A stretch of DNA of 64,000 bases from Deltaproteobacteria bacterium (GTDB lineage: Bacteria > Desulfobacterota > Syntrophorhabdia > Syntrophorhabdales > Syntrophorhabdaceae), in NCBI GenBank assembly GCA_022711595.1, contig JAKLET010000016.1, positions 1-64,000 of the forward strand. The letters are read 5' to 3'. The notes under the pieces are model-generated. The model was not told where the DNA came from and made no database searches. It worked only from the letters and a program-made list of their open reading frames with translations. Both the position numbers and the translations under genes were made by a program. Below, piece by piece: positions 51,665 to 62,585 of this stretch. Position 1 is the first letter of the stretch. Every line of letters begins with the position of its first letter.

Positions 51665-52396
51665 TTGTTTGTTACCAAGGTTCTGTACTATACCGAATTG
51701 TCCTGCCGATAACAACAAAATCATACAGCTGCTAATTCTCAGGGGGGTTGGAAAATTTCTAAGTCCCTGATTTTCAAGAAAGTGGATCTTAACTAATCTT
51801 ACAGTAATCTTACAAATAGCTTTGAATACAAGGGGTTTTGAGGGGTTTGGAATTTTGGGCGGCGCGAACCTGAATGAAAAACCCGTTTAAAAGAGGTTTG
51901 CAAAATATTGTTGAAAAGTGGGGTTTGTTATCAGGAGGTTTGCAAAATTTAAAGTCAAACGTATTGTCGTAACGCATTGACTGTGGCTGTATTGTGAGAA
52001 AATATGAGGTCAAAGGTGTAAACTGAAGGTGTAAACTGAAGGTGTAAACCTCATCGAAAGGTGTAAACCAGAGCTAAGTTGAGGTAGGGATTACATTCAC
52101 GAGATTGGGCTCCAATAAGAACACGAAAAAAGGTGTAAATCCGACTACGAGGGGGGGTCATGATCAATATTCAGTTTTTGGCCTCAAAACGGTTTAAAAA
52201 GGTGCCTGGATATTTCACAAGCTTCTCATTTCTCATAATGGCCGATACTTTACAATGCTTATTGACATTTATTGAGTACAATATCAGAATAGAATAAACA
52301 TATTATAGAAGAAGGCAGAGTTGAAAAGCGAGGCAATTGAATTATTTTAGGGATTCCGAGCATCCCCCGGGCCTAATGATTGTTGGGAGGATTTTT
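51665..52396. other. 732-base AT-rich non-coding start of the island
   Basis: No gene. Contains two AGGTTTGCAAAAT copies near 51895 and 51937, a TGTATTG sequence at 51988 that matches the first bases of phage Mu's left end, the GGTGTAAAC repeats (separate entry) and a TTGACA (52262) with a weak -10 for the first island gene. Confidence 0.5.
52015..52140. repeat. Iteron-like GGTGTAAAC repeats
   Basis: GGTGTAAAC occurs at 52015, 52028 and 52041 (exact 13-base period, with TGAA between), at 52060, and as GGTGTAAAT at 52132. The spacing is too short for CRISPR. Such clusters serve as binding sites for replication initiators or transposases; no protein that binds them can be identified. Confidence 0.75.
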
Positions 52397-53017
52397 ATGA
52401 ATGGAGCGTCGCAGAGCATTTCCAAGCAAGAAAAGGAGGGTTTGAGCTTTTTGGAACGTGACTTTAACCAGTGCTTTCAGCAAATGCGGCAGTATGATTC
52501 GCAGATTGTTGACATCCTGAAATTCATGTTTACGGCATATAGTGCACTTATTGGCGTAGCATTTGGTTTATATCAATTTGGTCGAGTAGAAGGTAAAGAC
52601 CTATCGCTATCGGCGGCATCCGCACTCAGTGTAGGCCTGTTAATTGGTCTGTTCATGTTAGGTCTTACAATCAGAAACCGAGTCTACTTTGTTCGAGTTG
52701 CAAGATATATTAACGAACATAGAGGATTCTTTCTTAGCTATAAACCATTGGGATTCGAAAACAAAGCCAAAATGTATGCTAACCACGAACAGCCGCACTA
52801 TTTCAATTGGAAAAGCTCGCACTCATGGTTGTGCTATATCGAAGCGGTATTGAACGGTACCCTCTTGACCTCTTTGGTATATATCATTAAACCATGCATG
52901 TGGCGGGCAATTGTTAGCGGCCTTTTCTTGCTCTCACTGCAGCTTGTTGTAGCCGTTGTATACTTAAGATCTTGTGAGAGAAAATCACCATCAGAAACTG
53001 TCTTTGGAAAGAAGTAA
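52397..53017 (+). CDS. Four-helix membrane protein of unknown function
   Basis: 206 residues from ATG 52397, with GGGAGG six bases before it. A soluble N-terminal helix region (LSFLERDFNQCFQQMRQYDSQ) is followed by helices at about 43-62 (FMFTAYSALIGVAFGLYQF), 74-92, 140-158 and 168-188, and a short basic tail. I do not recognise the family; the layout is like small membrane effectors found beside nucleotide-signalling or nuclease genes. AT-rich, unlike the core. The MBL-fold gene starts 3 bases after its stop, so the two are translated together. Confidence 0.65.
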   Translation: MNGASQSISKQEKEGLSFLERDFNQCFQQMRQYDSQIVDILKFMFTAYSALIGVAFGLYQFGRVEGKDLSLSAASALSVGLLIGLFMLGLTIRNRVYFVRVARYINEHRGFFLSYKPLGFENKAKMYANHEQPHYFNWKSSHSWLCYIEAVLNGTLLTSLVYIIKPCMWRAIVSGLFLLSLQLVVAVVYLRSCERKSPSETVFGKK

Positions 53018-53020
53018 CAT

Positions 53021-53977
53021 ATGTCAGAACTTAAAATATGGTTTCTGGACGTAGGTCATGGTGATTGTGCATATGTCGAGCTTCCCAACGGAGCACGGAT
53101 GATGATTGACTGTGGTGGGTACGATCACTGGCCATCAAGACTGCTCAGCCACTACAATGTTACTAAACTTGCCAATCCTGCCCCTATCCCAAACCATTCA
53201 TCAGAATTTGCTTTAGATATGCTTGTCATTACGCATCCACACGGCGATCATATTGCCGACATTGAAGCAATTCACGACAAGATAGGCTTTTATATGTTAA
53301 CAGGTAACTACAAGGCTTTCATAGACACTATTGCCCTCGAACAGATCGATTTTCGGAAGCGCGGCCAGGCTGCTGCCAAAAAATTTGTCGAAGTAGTGAA
53401 AAAGTATACGGGTCCGTATGTTGAGGATAAAGATCGCGTGTTATTGGCAAGACCTTCATGCACAGTCAAAAAGGCGCGCTTCATTGAATATGAGAAAAGT
53501 GTAGATTTTAACGATCTGAGTTGGTTTGTATCATTCGAAATTGGAACCAACAAAGTATTATTCGTTGGAGATATGACGTCAGGCGGGATTAAGAAAATAC
53601 TCGATTCAGATCGAGCTAAACAATTTAGGGACTTTGTTAAAGGAACGACTATATTAAAGATTCCACACCATGGTAGGGAAAACGGCTGCTCTGGAGAAAT
53701 GTTCGATGCATTTGGTGATAAACCCCTGTTATGTGTAGCTTCTGACGAGGTTCTAAATGATAAAAACGAAGGAACTTCACGCATCGGATGGTACTCTGAT
53801 CGAGTAAGTGATCAAAAAATCAATATTGATGGTAAGATGCAAAATAGAAAGGTTCTAACAACCCGAAGTGATAAGGATATTTTTCTAGGGGTTTCCGAAT
53901 CGGGGGAGCTACGTATTACAACAAACTGCTTCAGAGACGTTCGAGACGAGACAGGTGAGAACAAACAGCAGAGATAA
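53021..53977 (+). CDS. ComEC-type metallo-beta-lactamase-fold hydrolase 1
   Basis: 318 residues, no signal or membrane segment. Metal-binding motifs are complete: WFLDVGHGD at the N-terminus, VITHPHGDH, FVGDM with the bridging Asp, and IPHHG. This is the arrangement of the detached ComEC/Rec2 MBL domain, whose members act on DNA or phosphodiesters. The gene overlaps nothing but follows the membrane-protein gene by 3 bases. Substrate unknown; nuclease or cyclic-nucleotide phosphodiesterase are the main options. Confidence 0.8.
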   Translation: MSELKIWFLDVGHGDCAYVELPNGARMMIDCGGYDHWPSRLLSHYNVTKLANPAPIPNHSSEFALDMLVITHPHGDHIADIEAIHDKIGFYMLTGNYKAFIDTIALEQIDFRKRGQAAAKKFVEVVKKYTGPYVEDKDRVLLARPSCTVKKARFIEYEKSVDFNDLSWFVSFEIGTNKVLFVGDMTSGGIKKILDSDRAKQFRDFVKGTTILKIPHHGRENGCSGEMFDAFGDKPLLCVASDEVLNDKNEGTSRIGWYSDRVSDQKINIDGKMQNRKVLTTRSDKDIFLGVSESGELRITTNCFRDVRDETGENKQQR

Positions 53978-54049
53978 TTGTTAGGGATATTAACGCAGTA
54001 GAATAGTCTTAAGAATTTGCTCTGCATATTGACCTGAAAAAGGCAACTA

Positions 54050-55012
54050 ATGAGATCATGCCACATTTGGATATTCAACATTGGTCGCGGTTTCGCTTCC
54101 GTAATAAGAACGCCCAATAACAAATGGATTATGATCGATTTGGGCGCCAATGATAAGTTTAATCCGGTGAATGATTTTATGGTGCCTTGCTTCAAATACC
54201 TTTGTATGGAGAAACGACAGGATAAAAAGTATCAGATTTCACAACTCATAATCACCCATCCGCACGATGATCATCTATCGGCGATAAATGATTTTAATCG
54301 AGCCTTTTATCCAAGTCTATTTACTGTTCAAAATGACTTGGATCACCCTGCTCAGTCGAATGAATCAAAAATCAACTGGGATCTTATAACAAATCCATCA
54401 AGTGATTTGACGGATTACTTGAGAAAAGAAATGCTCCCCGGAAGACAGCCTCCATTAAGAGCTACAGATGAAGATAAATCTGAAGGCTTTGTGTTTCAAA
54501 TCTACCATCTTAAACCATCTACATGCGAGAATGATAAAGAACTTCTAAGGGCAAATTACAGCAATAATGTTAGTATAATGGTCAGATTGAACTATAATGG
54601 TAATGTTATTCTTTTCTGCGGCGATATGATGAAAGATGGCATGTCAAAAATAATATCCGGTAATGCTGCTCTGAAAAATGCGCTGTCCAATTATGGAGTA
54701 GACTTCTTGGTGGCCCCCCACCATGGATTAAGGTCTTCATTTTCTACCGAACTTTTCGCTACTATGAAAAATGGACGCACCAGGGCTCTCAATATAATAT
54801 CTGAAAAACCAACAAACAAGGATTCGAATGAGATTGTGGACACCCGGTATGAAAGCAAAGACTATTCGGGCGGACACCAAGTCATAGTTGATGGCTGGCC
54901 GGAGCAAAAAAGACATCTTAAGACGTCGGCGTCTGGACACATTCGAATTGATCTGTTTCAAAACAAACGAGCGGTCGTGGTTTCTGGCAAGAGCGCTCTG
55001 AAAATTCCATAA
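54050..55012 (+). CDS. ComEC-type metallo-beta-lactamase-fold hydrolase 2
   Basis: 320 residues, a distant paralog of the gene before it. ITHPHDDH, CGDMM and APHHG keep the metal ligands, but the first motif is degenerate (IFNIGRGF in place of LDVGxGD). The C-terminal TSASGHIRIDL matches the end of the first protein. The ATG at 54050 follows AAAAAGGCAAC, a weak site. With the preceding gene 72 bases upstream it may form a heteromeric hydrolase. Confidence 0.78.
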   Translation: MRSCHIWIFNIGRGFASVIRTPNNKWIMIDLGANDKFNPVNDFMVPCFKYLCMEKRQDKKYQISQLIITHPHDDHLSAINDFNRAFYPSLFTVQNDLDHPAQSNESKINWDLITNPSSDLTDYLRKEMLPGRQPPLRATDEDKSEGFVFQIYHLKPSTCENDKELLRANYSNNVSIMVRLNYNGNVILFCGDMMKDGMSKIISGNAALKNALSNYGVDFLVAPHHGLRSSFSTELFATMKNGRTRALNIISEKPTNKDSNEIVDTRYESKDYSGGHQVIVDGWPEQKRHLKTSASGHIRIDLFQNKRAVVVSGKSALKIP

Positions 55013-55417
55013 GAGGACTATCAAAGGAATAGAGGTCAGAACTAATATGGTAAATCTTTCTGATGATAAAAAAACTGAAGCATAACGTCGATGTATCGTC
55101 AGCTAATTGTTTTCGAGGGAATTGGACCTGTGCGTTTGGCAGCTTACTATGACCAAATTGTCAGCATCGATAACTAATAACCCACAGGAATACCTTGGCG
55201 GCAGAGAGAACTCGTTTTTCAGTACAGCACCCCTCAGCGCTCTAACCGTGCCACGATAGAGATGAAAAATAATCGGTTTCAACTGCTAAACAAGATACTA
55301 TACTGGATGATTGTAGGTTTTCAAGGAGCTGAATAGATTGACACTCATTATATCAAAATAATAAAATTAGACAAATGGTAGGTAGAGATGAGTTTTAATT
55401 CTTAGCGGAAGGACAAC
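55013..55417. other. 405-base gap inside the island
   Basis: No credible gene. Only very short frames occur, such as a 12-codon one at about 55048. A promoter for the next gene could lie here, but I see no clear hexamer pair. It may be the remnant of a deleted gene. Confidence 0.5.
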
Positions 55418-56293
55418 TTGGCCGAACTTAAACCAGAAAATCTTCAGATTATGCAGAAGAAACAAATTCGATCTTTCTCAACAGATCGAGATGAACTACG
55501 CAAGCTTTTAGATATTCTTCAAGAGAGGGTTTGCGCTGCAGCTGAAATCGAGGAGAAACATCTGCCCAGAATTGCAGGCCAGTCCGACGAGCAGTACGAG
55601 CAAGCTAAGAAAGACCTGAGGAATGGTTTTCGTCTGTTTATCACTCTTTCGGGTACAGATGGAAGAAAGTTAACTGGAAGTATTGACGAAATATTTGATT
55701 CACCAAACTTTCCGGAAGATGTCAAAGACCTGTTTTTCAACAGTTGTACGACGCTTCAGGTCCGATACAACTATTATCCTAGAAATATGATAGTCCTGTT
55801 CCTTGATTTTGGAAAACCCACAGTGCTAAATTTCTCCATTCTTCCTTCACAGGAAACGCGAAACGAAAGCAATGTCGAAGTGAGCGGTAATGATATCACT
55901 TGGGTTAACGGCGTGTTTCAAGAATTTGTTAGTTATGTTTCTCGGCATCCTTCCACGTTCCCGTGGTTACACCGACACTCAGTGTATGATGTGTTGGTCT
56001 GGTTGTTTGGGTTACCCCTGTCTTTTTGGATTTGCAGTCGAATCTCTGGTTTCGTTGAGACCAGACTCTTTGCAAACTCTCCATTCCTTCGAGCAGCGTT
56101 TTATGTCTACGTTTTTTTCTTTTCATTAAGTTTACTAAGAGTGGCTTTCCATTATGCAAGATGGATTTGGCCTTTAACTGAGTACAAAAATCCTAAAAAC
56201 AAGGCTTGGAAACACAAGACCGTTTTAGCGACCGTTTGCCTTGCTTTGGTTGCAAGAATCGTTTATGACTTATTTATGTGGTTCATTAAATAA
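55418..56293 (+). CDS. Unknown protein with C-terminal membrane helices
   Basis: 291 residues from a TTG start with GGAAGGA 6 bases upstream. The first 190 residues are soluble: a charged helical start, then a mixed region with LFITLSGTDGRKLTG and IVLFLDFGKPTVLNFSI. Three hydrophobic helices follow at about 190-209, 225-250 and 265-289, leaving a very short tail. I do not recognise it. It ends the rightward AT-rich group and converges on the prophage repressor gene. A membrane effector with a cytosolic sensing domain would fit its shape, but that is speculation. Confidence 0.6.
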   Translation: MAELKPENLQIMQKKQIRSFSTDRDELRKLLDILQERVCAAAEIEEKHLPRIAGQSDEQYEQAKKDLRNGFRLFITLSGTDGRKLTGSIDEIFDSPNFPEDVKDLFFNSCTTLQVRYNYYPRNMIVLFLDFGKPTVLNFSILPSQETRNESNVEVSGNDITWVNGVFQEFVSYVSRHPSTFPWLHRHSVYDVLVWLFGLPLSFWICSRISGFVETRLFANSPFLRAAFYVYVFFFSLSLLRVAFHYARWIWPLTEYKNPKNKAWKHKTVLATVCLALVARIVYDLFMWFIK

Positions 56294-56380: not shown

Positions 56381-57256
56381 TTACGATTCAGGTGGATAAA
56401 AACGCGATGTCTTCCCCTTTGTAATACTCTTAATCTTGCCGAGGATAATCGCTGAATGTACAAAAAAGTTTATTTCCCGATGCTTACCATTAACAACCAT
56501 TTCCTTAAATAGGTCAGTAAACTTGATGCCGGGCTGGCGTTTTACAATCGAGCTAATTTCTTGAATAATGTTCCCGTCCAGTGGATATTCAGGATCTCGC
56601 AAAATGAAGTCCTTGAACTCTTTTTTGGCCTCGTCAAATTCTGTCCGTAAATAGCCTTTCTCATGCATGTGCTTTAGTGCGTACATACCCAATAAGCAAG
56701 CCTCTCTCGCAGCAGTTTGATCACCGTTAAGCTCATGTTGTCGTGCCCTTAATAAAGACTCCAGCGCTTCTCGCCTGTGCTCCTCTATGAGCAACCTTTT
56801 TATCTCGTCTTCACTCTTTTTGGGCACAAAAGCGTACAAAAGGGCCTTTACAGCCTCAATTTTTGTCTCGTCATTCTCGGCAAAAATGTAGGATAGAGCG
56901 AATAATATTCCCTCGATATCTCTATGGTTTATCTGAAGGACCTTCCTGATGGTGCTTAGGGCTATGCTGACTCGTCCCGAAATCAATAGCTGATTGATTT
57001 CACCGATTATTCGTAATCCTTTCGAAGAGTAACGGGAAGCCTTATCATACACCTCACCCTGTCCTTCTTCCAGCCAGCGCCTGTTGAGTCCCAATGTACG
57101 GCAAATGCTCAGAATCAACTGTTCCGAAGGATTCTTTTTACCAGCTTCCAGTTCAGATACATATGGTCCTTTGATTCCCAGCAATTTACCAAACTCTTGC
57201 TGACTTAAAGAAAGCTCCTTTCTAAGATTATATATCCGTTTTCCAATAGTAATCAT
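56381..57256 (-). CDS. XRE-family prophage repressor
   Basis: 291 residues. Residues 1-60 are a helix-turn-helix of the XRE/Cro-CI type (LSLSQQEFGKLLGIKGPYVSELEAGKKNPSEQ), and the rest is alpha-helical (TPR-like, with HINFFVHSAIILGKI-type segments at the end). In position and direction it corresponds to the Mu repressor c, although its fold differs. Its promoter is the minus-strand half of a palindrome (57278-57311) that also drives the early operon, so it can repress itself and its rival. Confidence 0.78.
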   Translation of the reverse strand: MITIGKRIYNLRKELSLSQQEFGKLLGIKGPYVSELEAGKKNPSEQLILSICRTLGLNRRWLEEGQGEVYDKASRYSSKGLRIIGEINQLLISGRVSIALSTIRKVLQINHRDIEGILFALSYIFAENDETKIEAVKALLYAFVPKKSEDEIKRLLIEEHRREALESLLRARQHELNGDQTAAREACLLGMYALKHMHEKGYLRTEFDEAKKEFKDFILRDPEYPLDGNIIQEISSIVKRQPGIKFTDLFKEMVVNGKHREINFFVHSAIILGKIKSITKGKTSRFYPPES

Positions 57257-57277
57257 AGCTGTGCTACTCTTTTTTTC

Positions 57278-57311
57278 TTGACATAATATAGCTGAGTTAC
57301 TATTATGTCAG
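57278..57311. promoter_or_regulatory. Face-to-face promoters within one palindrome (lysis/lysogeny switch)
   Basis: TGACATAATA and TATTATGTCA (57279-57288 and 57301-57310) form a perfect inverted repeat 12 bases apart. Read rightward: TTGACA (57278-57283), 17 bases, TATTAT (57301-57306). Read leftward: CTGACA, 17 bases, TATTAT. The two promoters occupy the same DNA, so only one polymerase can bind at a time. AGCTGTGCTACT and AGCTGAGTTACT near 57257 and 57290 are direct repeats that could be repressor half-sites. Confidence 0.82.
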
Positions 57312-57313
57312 TG

Positions 57314-57550
57314 ATGATGACGTATTCGAATAAGAAAATCAAGGCAGTCATGGCCTTAAGGGGATTGACCACATACAGCATGGCAGTCGTGATTGGTGTC
57401 AGCCAAGCCGCTATCAGTAGGACACTTGCTGGTAACAGAAAGAATCCTTGTCTTCGCTTAGCTATTTCACAACTGTTAGGCATTCCCTTCAATGTCTGGA
57501 AAGATCTCGATGCAGAATTGAGAACTACCCAGAAGGAGAAGTTTCTGTGA
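57314..57550 (+). CDS. Small helix-turn-helix regulator (Cro/Ner-like position)
   Basis: 78 residues from ATG 57314 (57317 and 57350 are in-frame alternatives). The helix-turn-helix is in MALRGLTTYSMAVVIGVSQAAISRTLAGNRKN. It lies first in the rightward operon, where Mu encodes Ner, the negative regulator of early transcription. The predicted transcript start is within a base or two of the first ATG, so the message may be leaderless; the ATG at 57350 has an AAGG upstream. Confidence 0.6.
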   Translation: MMTYSNKKIKAVMALRGLTTYSMAVVIGVSQAAISRTLAGNRKNPCLRLAISQLLGIPFNVWKDLDAELRTTQKEKFL

Positions 57551-57643
57551 GATCCTGGCATACATTCTGGTTCATGGTCGCGCAATTCATATTGACACAA
57601 ATCAAACATGAATTGATTGTATCAAATGCTCAAGGGGGTTTCA

Positions 57644-58087
57644 ATGTCAATTAGAAATAAAAAATTGCATACTCCTTTATCAAATCAGGGGGATCTCTTT
57701 GATATCCCTTTGATGGAAGGGTCCCTCGATGTTAGTCTTTCTTTCCGCGCGGCCCTCTCCAGGGTCTTCAGCAAATGTCAGGACAGCAGATACCAGCTTG
57801 CAGCAAAACTCAGCGAATACACCAAAAGAAATATCTCAAAGGATTCCTTGGACAAGTACGTGAGTTCCAACTTGGATTATGCCCTCCGGGCTGAGGATCT
57901 CCCGGCAACGATAGCGGTTACAGGCTCCCTAGACCATGTACAGGCCCTTCTTGATCCCGTTGGCTGCTCCGTTGTGACTCCCGAAGATAGTAGGCTACTC
58001 AAACTTGCTCGGTTGACACAGCAAAGAAACCACCTGAGTATCGAAATAGCTCGGCTTGAAAACGAAATCGGAATCACGAAGAGATAG
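57644..58087 (+). CDS. Phage protein of unknown function upstream of the transposase
   Basis: 147 residues from ATG 57644, with GGGGG 5 bases before it. Contains FRAALSRVFSKCQDSRYQLAAKLSEYTKRNISKD, which recurs in Mu-like early regions ahead of the transposase, and ends with a coiled-coil-like tail (RLTQQRNHLSIEIARLENEI). The role is unknown. Its stop is immediately followed by the transposase GTG, so translation is coupled. Confidence 0.6.
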   Translation: MSIRNKKLHTPLSNQGDLFDIPLMEGSLDVSLSFRAALSRVFSKCQDSRYQLAAKLSEYTKRNISKDSLDKYVSSNLDYALRAEDLPATIAVTGSLDHVQALLDPVGCSVVTPEDSRLLKLARLTQQRNHLSIEIARLENEIGITKR

Positions 58088-60337
58088 GTGAGTGCCTCTG
58101 TGAGACAGGACAGCTTTGAACGCAGCACAAACTGCTCCGAGATATGGCTATCGGCTAAGAAAGCCGCGAACTTAATCGGAGTGTCCAAAGTCGCCTTTCA
58201 CAAACACAGAAAGACCGGTCTGTATGTTGTCGAGGCGAGACGTGGCAACGGCGGGGAGCAATACTATGTCCGGCTAGATTCTCTTCCGTTGCCCGCTCAG
58301 GCCAGATATTACTCATTCCTTTCACACCCTCAAGCCGTAACCCACAAAGAAACCATCAAAGCCGTCTCTTCCGGGGAGCCCTCCTTTGTCCAGGGACGGG
58401 CGGAGCGGATGCTGCCCGTCCCTGTGTCCCCGGATTCCATATTTCCCGATAACCTCAAGACAATCGCCCTGGCACGTCTTGACCTCGTCACCGCATGGCG
58501 GGATCACCGGCGTATCTTCGGAAGCTCACACGGATCGCGGCTAAAAGCCGATGCTGATTTCGAAAAAACCTACAACATGGGCCTTATTCTTTCCCAGGTT
58601 TTCCAGGTCCTCGGCAAGGTGGACATGAACACAATCTACCGCTGGCACCGGGCGCTCGCCGGGTCCGCCGACTGGACCCTGCTTGTCCCGGACTGGAACA
58701 CCCTGGAGAGAAAACAGCCCTCCCTCTCCCCCTTAGAAAAGAAAACCTTCTCCGACTGCCTGCTGCACCCGAACCGCCTCTCCATCGGGGAGGCCGTAAA
58801 AATGACAAAGATCGCCCTGGCACAAAAGAACATCCCCTCACCGTCCGCTCCGATCACCTTCAGAAGGTGGGCTCAGTGGTTTAGAAGCAAAAACAGTCAT
58901 GTCTGGACCCTCATGCGCGAGGGCGAGAAGGCCCTTAAAGACAAAGAGATCTTCTCCATCACACGGGACATCTCGAAGCTCGAAGTGGGAGATGTCCTCG
59001 TAGCCGATGGCCACAGGCTCAACTTCCAGGTCATCAACCCCTTCACCGGCAAGCCCTGCCGTGCGACGCTCATCGGCTACCTTGACTGGAAATCCTGGAA
59101 CCTTGCAGGCTTCGAGATCATGATCGAAGAGACCACCCAGGCCATAGCATCAGCCTTAAGAAACTCGATCATCAACCTGGGCAAAACCCCGAAGATCTGC
59201 TACCAGGATAACGGCAAGGCATTCCGGGCGCGGTTCTTCACCGGGTCTGCGGATTTCAATGAGGCGGGGCTCTCGGGCCTTTTCGGGAGGCTCGGGATAA
59301 CACCCAAATATGCGCAGCCCTACAACGCCCGGGCGAAGACGATAGAGCGCTGGTTCAAGGAGTTCACGGGCAAATGCGAAAGGCTCCTTCCCTCCTTCAC
59401 GGGAGCCTCCATCGAAGATAAACCGGCCTGGCTCAAGCGCAACGAGACCTTCCACAAGATCCACCACAACGGGCACGTCCCGACGATCCGCGAGGCCGTG
59501 AAGATGATAACGACCTGGGTGAGGGAATACCTGGAGATGCAGCCCTGCCCGCACGTGAAGGGAAAGACCATCGGCGAGGTCTTCGCCGAGGGGCGCGGCC
59601 CTGGCGTTGAGATAGCGGAGCTCGACGAGCTCATGCTCGCGACGGAGGTCAAGACGATCCGAGCGAACGGTATCAGGTTCCTGGGAGCGGACTACTACAA
59701 CGACGCCCTCTTCGGTTTAAGGGAGCAGGTCTTCGTCAAGTACTCCCTGTCCGATCTCTCGAACGTGAGGGTCTATGACCGGCAGGGGATCTTCCTGTGC
59801 ATCGCCGAGAGGACCCAGGCCGCTCACCCCATGGCGGCGCTCCTCGGGGACGCGAAGGACGTCGCTCAGGTCAAACACCTCATCGGCAGGCAGCGCTCCC
59901 TCCAGAAGGCGGTTGTTAAGGCCGCGAAGGAGCTCATACCGGGAAGACGCAGGTCCGAGCCCTGGTCCGAGATCGTACCCCTTTCACCGAAAACTATCGA
60001 AAAGCTTGAAGAGACCACGGCGGACACGCGGGATATCGGGAACTTCCAGATCCCGGAGTACATGCTTAAAAGCAATCAGGTCAATGCCCCCGAGCCTGTT
60101 CCCGCAATTCAGGAGAACAACCGAGACCCGGAACCCGTCGAGCGGCCCATGTTCGACAGCGAGACAGAACGCTATGAGTGGCTTCAGAAGCACGGCTGCC
60201 AGACTAAGGAAGATGAGAACTGGGTTGAGTGGTTCAAGACGACCAAGACCTATGAGAACTATTTCGGCTGGTTCGAAAAGCAGGCCGAGGAGCTCGTGAC
60301 GGGCATGACCGACTGCGGATACGAAATACACAGGTAA
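58088..60337 (+). CDS. MuA-like DDE transposase
   Basis: 749 residues from GTG 58088. The N-terminal winged-helix (WLSAKKAANLIGVSKVAFHK) binds the prophage ends. The catalytic core has Asp307 (LVADGH), Asp374 (YQDNGKA) and Glu420 (ARAKTIERW), the DDE triad of the Mu/retroviral integrase superfamily. A C-terminal Mu-transposase domain follows. It cuts and joins the prophage ends into target DNA with MuB. The gene is GC-rich, unlike the island to its left. Confidence 0.9.
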   Translation: MSASVRQDSFERSTNCSEIWLSAKKAANLIGVSKVAFHKHRKTGLYVVEARRGNGGEQYYVRLDSLPLPAQARYYSFLSHPQAVTHKETIKAVSSGEPSFVQGRAERMLPVPVSPDSIFPDNLKTIALARLDLVTAWRDHRRIFGSSHGSRLKADADFEKTYNMGLILSQVFQVLGKVDMNTIYRWHRALAGSADWTLLVPDWNTLERKQPSLSPLEKKTFSDCLLHPNRLSIGEAVKMTKIALAQKNIPSPSAPITFRRWAQWFRSKNSHVWTLMREGEKALKDKEIFSITRDISKLEVGDVLVADGHRLNFQVINPFTGKPCRATLIGYLDWKSWNLAGFEIMIEETTQAIASALRNSIINLGKTPKICYQDNGKAFRARFFTGSADFNEAGLSGLFGRLGITPKYAQPYNARAKTIERWFKEFTGKCERLLPSFTGASIEDKPAWLKRNETFHKIHHNGHVPTIREAVKMITTWVREYLEMQPCPHVKGKTIGEVFAEGRGPGVEIAELDELMLATEVKTIRANGIRFLGADYYNDALFGLREQVFVKYSLSDLSNVRVYDRQGIFLCIAERTQAAHPMAALLGDAKDVAQVKHLIGRQRSLQKAVVKAAKELIPGRRRSEPWSEIVPLSPKTIEKLEETTADTRDIGNFQIPEYMLKSNQVNAPEPVPAIQENNRDPEPVERPMFDSETERYEWLQKHGCQTKEDENWVEWFKTTKTYENYFGWFEKQAEELVTGMTDCGYEIHR

Positions 60338-60402
60338 GAAGAACCCCGTGATGGTGTGAACCGTTGACGAGGTCAATCCAATGCATAAAAGGAGCAGAAC
60401 CG

Positions 60403-61083
60403 ATGAGACAGATCTTTGCAAGGACTTCAAATGTATCTTCCTTCGTTGCTGCCATGGAACGCCTCCAAAATAAAGACGGCGATCTGCCTGGCATGGCCCT
60501 TGTCTTCGGGGAACCCGGCCTCGGCAAGACGAAGACGGCCCTGTGGTGGGCGCTCCAGAATGGCGGCGTCTTCATCCGGACGAAGAAGCTCATGACTGGC
60601 CGTTGGCTGCTCGAAGAAATCGTTGCCGAGCTCGGCGAGTCCCCGGCCTATCGGACCTCCGATCTCTTCCGTCAGGCCGTAGAGCAGCTCCTCTCCCGGC
60701 CCAGGACGCTCCTCATCGACGAGGTTGATTACCTCGCCTATGACGCACGGGTCCTGGAGACGCTCCGGGACATCCACGACGTGGCGGGGACCCCAATGGT
60801 CTTTCTCGGCATGGACAAGGCGGACAAAAAGCTCAGCCGTTACCGCCACCTCTGCGACCGCTTTGTGGAGGTAGTCAGGTTCAAACCGTTGTCGAGGGAT
60901 GACGTGGCGTCCGTCGCAAAGCAGCTCTGCGAGGTGAGGCTCACCGGTGACGCCATTGACTTTATCCATGCCGATGCAGATCGGTTCCGGCAGGTCCTCA
61001 AGTGGTTCTACAAAGCAGAGGCGCGGGCTCGGGCAAATAACCTGGAAGAGATCTCCGCCGCAAATCTCAAGAGGAAGGAATGA
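60403..61083 (+). CDS. MuB-like AAA ATPase (transposition target-DNA activator)
   Basis: 226 residues from ATG 60403, with AAAGGAG 8 bases upstream. Walker A is FGEPGLGKT (36-44), Walker B is LLIDEVD and the sensor region is VFLGMDKAD. MuB polymerises on DNA, captures targets and stimulates the transposase. The following gene starts within its stop codon (ATGATG). Length is less than Mu B (312 residues), as in many relatives. Confidence 0.85.
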   Translation: MRQIFARTSNVSSFVAAMERLQNKDGDLPGMALVFGEPGLGKTKTALWWALQNGGVFIRTKKLMTGRWLLEEIVAELGESPAYRTSDLFRQAVEQLLSRPRTLLIDEVDYLAYDARVLETLRDIHDVAGTPMVFLGMDKADKKLSRYRHLCDRFVEVVRFKPLSRDDVASVAKQLCEVRLTGDAIDFIHADADRFRQVLKWFYKAEARARANNLEEISAANLKRKE

Positions 61084-61889: not shown

Positions 61890-62585
61890 ATGAGTGGCAA
61901 GATGATGACCCGGGAACAGGCGGGAATGATCACGGTCTTTACCGGCGATCTCAAGCTGTCGGATAAGCGTTACAAGCTGATTCTTGCGCGAAACGGCATC
62001 GACCCTGACGGGGACATGACATCGCGGACAATCACTTTCGAACAGGCCGCAGGCGTCATTAACTCCCTGGAGGAGGTTTACTTCGAACTCCAGGGAAAGA
62101 AGATCACAAAGGAGCAGACGCGCAAGATCCACACCCTGGTAAGCGCCCTTGACCTTCCCGATGAGGTCTACCGCAAGGGCCTGAACGACCTCTTCTGCGT
62201 GGATACGTCGAAGGTCCTCACGGCAAGGCAGGCCGCGTACCTCATTGATGTCCTAGAGATGGAAGGCGTCATGAACGGCGTCTGGAGCAGGCGCGAGTAC
62301 CGCGACAAATACAACGAGCTCGGGCGGCGTCCCGACATGGCGACCCCGGCACAGCTCCGCAAGATCGAGGCCACCTGGAACGGGCTCTATCCCGAAAGCA
62401 ACCCGGAGATACGCCAGAGAAACATTCGGACCTTCCTCTTCAGATTTTTCAAGGTCTCCGATTTGAGGTTCCTGGACCAGGAGACGGCGAACAAGGTTCT
62501 CTATGCCTTAAGGAAGATGACACAGAGGAAAGAGGTCGCCCCGAAAAACGCCCTTCAGACGCATTTTGGGGGGAAGGCCGGATGA
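61890..62585 (+). CDS. gemA: GemA/Gp16-family phage regulator
   Basis: 231 residues, DUF1018 family. The most conserved stretch is ELGRRPDMATPAQLRKIEATWNGLY near residue 150. In Mu, GemA modulates host gene expression and DNA gyrase-dependent superhelicity. It starts 2 bases after the previous stop, and its own stop is overlapped by a small gene (ATGA). Confidence 0.82.
   Translation: MSGKMMTREQAGMITVFTGDLKLSDKRYKLILARNGIDPDGDMTSRTITFEQAAGVINSLEEVYFELQGKKITKEQTRKIHTLVSALDLPDEVYRKGLNDLFCVDTSKVLTARQAAYLIDVLEMEGVMNGVWSRREYRDKYNELGRRPDMATPAQLRKIEATWNGLYPESNPEIRQRNIRTFLFRFFKVSDLRFLDQETANKVLYALRKMTQRKEVAPKNALQTHFGGKAG

Follow-up and report, generated by a model that had tools for sequence, protein, structure and literature searches.

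The window, by which we mean the whole 64,000-nucleotide stretch of DNA analysed here, comprises positions 1-64,000 of contig JAKLET010000016.1. Loci of relatives carry L-numbers, with L018 denoting the continuation of the same contig. Comparison with the relative L003, and of the two ends with each other, delimited an element of about 15.2 kb at contig positions 51736-66931. It is flanked by a 5-bp target-site duplication, GCTAA, at 51731-51735 and at contig positions 66932-66936, and inverted similarities between its two ends show that transposase-site-like end repeats are present. The control region lies between a leftward cI-like repressor gene and a rightward Ner-like gene, and a MuA-type transposase and then a MuB-type ATPase follow in order behind this divergent pair. 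The preliminary description had placed the site between a repressor and early genes, which agrees with the following gene layout:

56381..57256, minus strand: cI-like repressor, 291 aa (N-terminal Pfam HTH_3, 7.9e-12; phage repressor PHROGs)
57317..57550, plus strand: Ner/Cro-like small HTH protein, 77 aa (phrog_1468 transcriptional repressor, 4e-7)
57647..58087, plus strand: CII-like transcriptional regulator, 146 aa (phrog_2345, 3e-23; phrog_101 CII-like, 3.5e-4)
58088..60337, plus strand: MuA-like transposase, 749 aa (phrog_310, 4.8e-85; Mu-transpos_C)
60364..61083, plus strand: MuB-like ATPase, 239 aa (phrog_296, 6.5e-48; AAA_22/TniB)
61890..62585, plus strand: GemA-like protein (PF06252, 1.2e-18)

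The repressor has a relative in L020 with which it is 32% identical. A Mor-type late activator is encoded in the contig continuation (PF08765, 1.6e-16). Among the right-part proteins scanned, the only trace of virion (head/tail) genes was a C-terminal I-type protease fragment; the relatives L004 and L005 carry head proteases. From the gene content, the target duplication, and the loss of virion genes, we conclude that the element is a deleted Mu-like prophage. In the continuation (contig 64001-66931), the truncated I-type protease is followed directly by the Mor-like gene and a second GemA-like gene, an arrangement that looks as if the virion block of the right part had been lost by deletion.

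Other parts of the element also drew our attention. Four rightward genes at 52337-56293, between the left end and the repressor, include two putative membrane proteins and tandem metallo-beta-lactamase-fold proteins at 53021-53977 and 54050-55012 (PADLOC candidate PDC-M48B, with weaker LmuA and RTasMBL matches), and together they look like a defence-type cargo module. A sigma-70-like protein, recognized by eye, runs from 63907 past the window end to contig position 64683, alongside the Mor-like activator, and L005:9095-9790 matches the sigma factor phrog_351 (9e-41). A phage-encoded sigma factor may run the late genes in this Mu-like family.

The gap between the repressor and the Ner-like gene contains two superimposed promoter matches within a palindrome:

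57278-57311: 34-base site TTGACATAATATAGCTGAGTTACTATTATGTCAG, read from the sequence
57279..57310, no strand: perfect palindrome TGACATAATA-N12-TATTATGTCA, exact
57278..57306, plus strand: early promoter Pe, -35 TTGACA (57278-57283), 17 bp, -10 TATTAT (57301-57306), 11/12 in the promoter scan
about 57313/57314, plus strand: predicted Pe start
57283..57311, minus strand: mirrored leftward promoter-like site, -35 CTGACA (57311-57306), 17 bp, -10 TATTAT (57288-57283), 10/12 in the scan
about 57275/57276, minus strand: predicted start of the mirrored site, with a leader of about 19 nt to the repressor ATG

The perfect palindrome announced in the preliminary description for 57278-57311 is exact at 57279-57310. 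It was found once in the window, even allowing three mismatches, and none of 100 shuffled sequences yielded a palindrome of this type. The promoter scan likewise recovered both of the described matches, which agree well with consensus. With the rightward promoter held fixed and the local base composition retained, a mirrored leftward match of at least 10/12 has P about 1e-3, and perfect 10-bp arms have P 8e-6 to 1e-5. With exact symmetry at about 1e-5, the presence of one promoter does not account for the mirror. Promoter-like matches as such were not enriched in this 3-kb stretch (5 found against 3.4 expected), and the unusual feature of the 34-base site is its exact symmetry, not the density of promoter matches. 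The two predicted starts lie about 38 bp apart and diverge, so the promoters are superimposed back to back and not face to face, as had been stated. Two polymerases are expected to be excluded from sharing the same 34 bp; the claim that they could not occupy both promoters at once holds.

The Ner-like start, ATG 57317, was inferred from the position of the -10 element and from the starts in relatives, with ATG 57314 and ATG 57305 as alternatives. From the end of the Pe -10, it is 7 bases to ATG 57314 and 10 to ATG 57317, with no ribosome-binding site visible in 57301-57319, and 6-10 bases separate the Pe -10 from the ner start in several relatives (L066, L069, L070, L072, and L085). The ner message probably has little or no leader.

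A pair of operator-like copies accompanies the promoters:

57288..57304, plus strand: O2, ATAGCTGAGTTACTATT, dyad core TAGCTGAGTTA at 57289-57299, centre 57294, in the spacer common to both promoters
57255..57271, plus strand: O1, ATAGCTGTGCTACTCTT, perfect dyad TAGCTGTGCTA at 57256-57266, overlapping the repressor start codon

O1 lies 33 bp to the left of O2 and is identical to it at 14 of 17 positions; its core dyad is TAGC-N3-GCTA. Relative to the Pe start it stands at about -53, and relative to the leftward start at +15. The operator motif TAGCTGNGYTAC occurs in two copies in the 3.5-Mb genome, both at the control region. Given the operator-like dyad in the common spacer, one protein could cover both promoters, as had been proposed. 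Both copies are putative sites, deduced from repeats.

The pairing extends beyond this element. Since MAFFT alignment of the control regions misaligns the promoters, spacing was measured by TTGACA anchoring. With offsets elsewhere in the same locus as the background, the spacer 12-mer reappears at p ≤ 0.05 within 28-36 bp upstream in 10 of the 22 control regions including the window (9 of 21 without it), where 1.1 would be expected. The repeat offsets in the relatives are 28-32 bp in L003 (inverted), 30 in L005, 31 in L067 and L072, 32 in L084 and L024, 34 in L100, and 35 in L085 and L089. The combined Fisher p over the 22 control regions is about 6e-7, a value that is optimistic because the offset range was set after viewing the 33 bp of the window and the first relatives, and because L085 and L089 are related and hence non-independent. 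The remaining 12 of 22 control regions did not show the operator-like pair, and some of the automatic promoter calls may be wrong. The repeated spacer sequence itself differs from phage to phage, and its recurrence upstream despite these differences makes paired operators, one of them in the early-promoter spacer, look like a family rule. We infer a conserved operator pair whose sequence would vary with the immunity specificity of each phage. The spacer palindromes are near-perfect in L004, L020, and L072. In two further loci, with coordinates given in reverse-complemented orientation (transposase rightward), the repressor/ner gap holds several copies of other motifs, AACTGCGAAAT at L021:1155-1300 and a TTTAAACTT-like motif at L022:3050-3190, which suggests operator arrays in place of the two-site layout.

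The centres of the operator dyad and the promoter dyad differ by no more than half a base pair, which would suit a palindrome that is mainly protein-binding. It would then be a 32-bp extended operator with its arms read by a repressor tetramer or by Ner, and the leftward promoter match would be a by-product of symmetry. The arms are more perfect than two promoters need, they run on through GTCA/TGAC, and the same non-consensus base appears in both -10 elements (TATTAT), all of which would be natural for such an operator. However, TATTAT is already the Pe -10 in L020, where there is no palindrome, the exact arm sequence appears nowhere else in the window, and the presumed second site, O1, lacks these arms. 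We consider an extended operator unlikely.

A second candidate for transcribing the repressor lies behind ner:

57616..57644, minus strand: distal leftward promoter candidate (Pc1-like), TTGAAA (57644-57639), 17 bp, extended -10 TG-A-TACAAT (57621-57616), 10/12 plus TG
57613-57625: conserved intergenic palindrome TTGATTGTATCAA, behind ner, overlapping the distal leftward -10

L003 and L004 share the extended -10 block GATTGTATCAAA with the window letter for letter, and L020 retains TG-N-TACACT, an altered extended -10, at the same intergenic place. As a palindrome, TTGATTGTATCAA might serve the neighbouring CII-like regulator or another protein as a binding site instead of being a promoter, although L020 has lost its symmetry and kept the extended -10. 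On this comparison, the distal candidate appears to be a better conserved repressor promoter than the mirrored site. Activity and role of either leftward promoter are predicted from their motifs and positions.

The early promoter itself is shared, in that CTTGACA-16/18-(-10) recurs ahead of the Ner-like gene in relatives. The mirror is lineage-specific. A mirrored leftward promoter was present in 0 of 15 relatives' early promoters, with the best match at the mirrored position reaching at most 8/12, and, in a phylum sample of 395 genomes, the pattern TTGACATWATA-N12-TATWATGTCA turned up in one alone, the window's own. In seven regions (L003, L005, L020, L066, L069, L024, and L114), the repressor is called to start at position +6, in overlap with the Pe -35. 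A mirrored repressor promoter is thereby excluded in these regions, because its leftward start would fall behind the start codon. In several of them, listed below, the repressor start as called reads ATGTCAAG or TTGTCAAG, which corresponds in reverse complement to the -35 region of the early promoter (CTTGACAT/CTTGACAA). The corresponding features in the relatives and in the window are as follows:

L003:1482, L005:2577, L020:1485, and L066:2642 (approximate): repressor starts embedded in the early promoter
57264..57284, minus strand: six-codon open frame ATG TCA AGA AAA AAA GAG TAG (MSRKKE, stop), read from the sequence

The six-codon frame sits where L003, L005, L020, and L066 have their called repressor start inside the Pe -35, and it is out of frame with the window's repressor. 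The sole in-frame repressor start, at 57256, lies about 19 nt behind the predicted mirrored start, a position compatible with this lineage having moved to a transcript that begins at the mirrored site.

A mirror confined to one element might also be mutational in origin, for example through template-switch correction of an imperfect inverted repeat, and have no selected role in a decaying prophage. The nearest relatives do have Pe without the mirror, virion genes are missing here, and the I-type protease is truncated. Against such an origin, the repressor, Ner, transposase, and ATPase frames are all intact, and the repressor start could be used by a mirrored transcript, unlike in the relatives whose start lies inside the -35; we regard it as very unlikely.

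Wider searches placed the motif in other settings. IMG/VR returned no relative when searched with the repressor and remote matches, 27-44% identical, when searched with Ner; neither search found a relative with the same operator, and transposase scans of genome contigs gave no match. A census of exact mirrored promoters in IMG/VR gave three contigs with the window's arms and five with full-consensus arms. On inspection, these contigs had no repressor/early-gene pair at the motif, and most copies lay between or beside co-directional genes, so the mirrored motif is no general marker of switches. Exact full-consensus mirrored promoters, TTGACATTATA-N12-TATAATGTCAA, stand just ahead of rightward genes in viral contigs at L034:939-972, L037:1232-1265, and L036:6898-6931. 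The same kind of gene follows the mirror in L034 and L037, and the element therefore recurs there in a non-divergent setting.

Phage Mu probably differs from the window in its operator layout and promoter overlap. The two are alike in having an early promoter for ner-A-B (Pe in Mu), a divergent repressor promoter (PcM in Mu), and cI-like and Ner-like regulators (PMC3820752). In the Mu-like Pseudomonas phage Fc02, pE and pC2 overlap between the repressor and ner, and the repressor transcript in the lysogen appears to come from the distal pC1 (PMC9936078). Fc02/B3 share with the window the divergent repressor and ner-like genes, the overlapping pE/pC2 pair, and a leftward pC1 beyond ner (PMC9936078), but their overlap comprises only some nucleotides in a 106-bp gap, whereas in the window both promoter matches occupy one 34-bp site. 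This parallel would make the mirrored site a secondary promoter of the pC2 kind and the distal element the counterpart of pC1. The distal candidate is also the likelier main source of repressor in the lysogen. The cI/cro region of the telomere phage PY54 resembles the window in its divergent repressor genes, its leaderless messages, and a strong repressor promoter at the 5' end of cro; it differs in belonging to a linear plasmid prophage whose Cro has a single 16-bp target, away from the promoter of its own gene (PMC4488713). We rejected a MerR-type spacer-operator promoter, which has a 19-20 bp spacer and a MerR-family regulator, as the window has a 17-bp spacer and an HTH_3/cI-like regulator.

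Coinciding divergent promoters are already known, and the exact symmetry of the window is an unusual variant of them. In the Bacillus subtilis plasmid pLS20, the divergent promoters Pr and Pc overlap so that the -35 and -10 of each fall precisely on the -10 and -35 of the other (PMC4207663), and the two promoter matches of the window occupy each other's elements in the same way. In both cases one promoter drives, or in the window would drive, the regulator gene, and operator motifs, putative in the window, overlap and flank the shared core promoters. The pLS20 system is one of plasmid conjugation and not of a phage; Pr is weak and needs its regulator, the operator arrays act with DNA looping, and the available text reports no perfect palindrome. 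E. coli bidirectional promoters (Warman et al.; PMC12825309, PMC10268837) resemble the window in their pseudo-symmetric DNA, on which polymerase binds in two orientations with one binding event at a time. Their shared -10 places starts 7-25 bp apart, usually 18. In the window, by contrast, each end of the site has its own -10 box and about 38 bp separate the predicted starts, and we rejected this class for the window.

These systems bear on the proposal that the superimposed promoters are the switch, with polymerase exclusion and one symmetric protein making a compact bistable device. The exact mirror geometry, the strong matches both ways, and the central operator dyad suit it, and in pLS20 the coinciding promoters do act within a switch. 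That switch owes its function, however, to a large difference in promoter strength and to a regulator that both activates and represses (PMC4207663), and it also needs DNA looping. For E. coli bidirectional promoters, of which five were studied, initiation at the basal level was too infrequent to bring polymerases into competition, and suppression appeared only when one direction was strongly activated (PMC12825309). Bistability from geometry alone, as the preliminary description had it, is thus unsupported, with the caveat that the overlap geometry of those promoters is another one. Furthermore, a protein on O2 would shut both promoters and so would not hold one state by itself. The notion of a compact switch keeps its repressor/early-gene setting, but the mirror is missing from all relatives checked, and the distal repressor promoter candidate is the better conserved. 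We consider it improbable that the superimposed promoters by themselves constitute the switch.

The reading we favour, and hold to be probable if only narrowly so, is a paired-operator Mu-type switch in which the mirror would give this lineage an additional, secondary promoter for the repressor that excludes the early one and is excluded by it. The gap between the repressor and ner would be the region that controls lysogeny and early transcription in a transposable prophage of the Mu-like (B3/Mu-type) kind, with Pe driving ner, the CII-like gene, and the transposition genes. The cI-like repressor, and perhaps Ner, would probably bind O2 in the Pe spacer as well as O1, which lies three helical turns farther upstream and overlaps the repressor start; occupied O2 would block Pe. 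In this lineage alone, mirror-symmetric promoter elements would create a leftward promoter feeding the repressor gene through a short leader, and polymerases on the two promoters would be mutually exclusive. A dimer on O2 would silence both directions, making the leftward promoter a negatively autoregulated secondary one, while the lysogenic repressor supply would come chiefly from the conserved leftward promoter behind ner. It counts against this paired-operator reading that the switch, with virion genes absent, may no longer be under selection. A stronger version appears rather doubtful to us: a natural promoter mirror-symmetric in both hexamers around an operator dyad, in which the orientation of polymerase on the 34-bp site would set repressor against lytic genes and one dimer would veto both, in a family with paired early-promoter operators three helical turns apart.

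Overlap between divergent promoters is common, and the overall kind of phage switch is known; the mirrored promoters are a neat lineage-specific variant of it, with bistability by itself unsupported. A near-symmetric pair centred on one operator is a clean natural case for asking whether exclusion between polymerases suffices to shape a decision. Possibly of wider use is the arrangement found in this uncharacterised Mu-like family, in which one putative operator sits within the early-promoter spacer and its copy lies about 32 bp farther upstream: as the operator sequence is different in each phage, immunity groups would be predictable directly from sequence.
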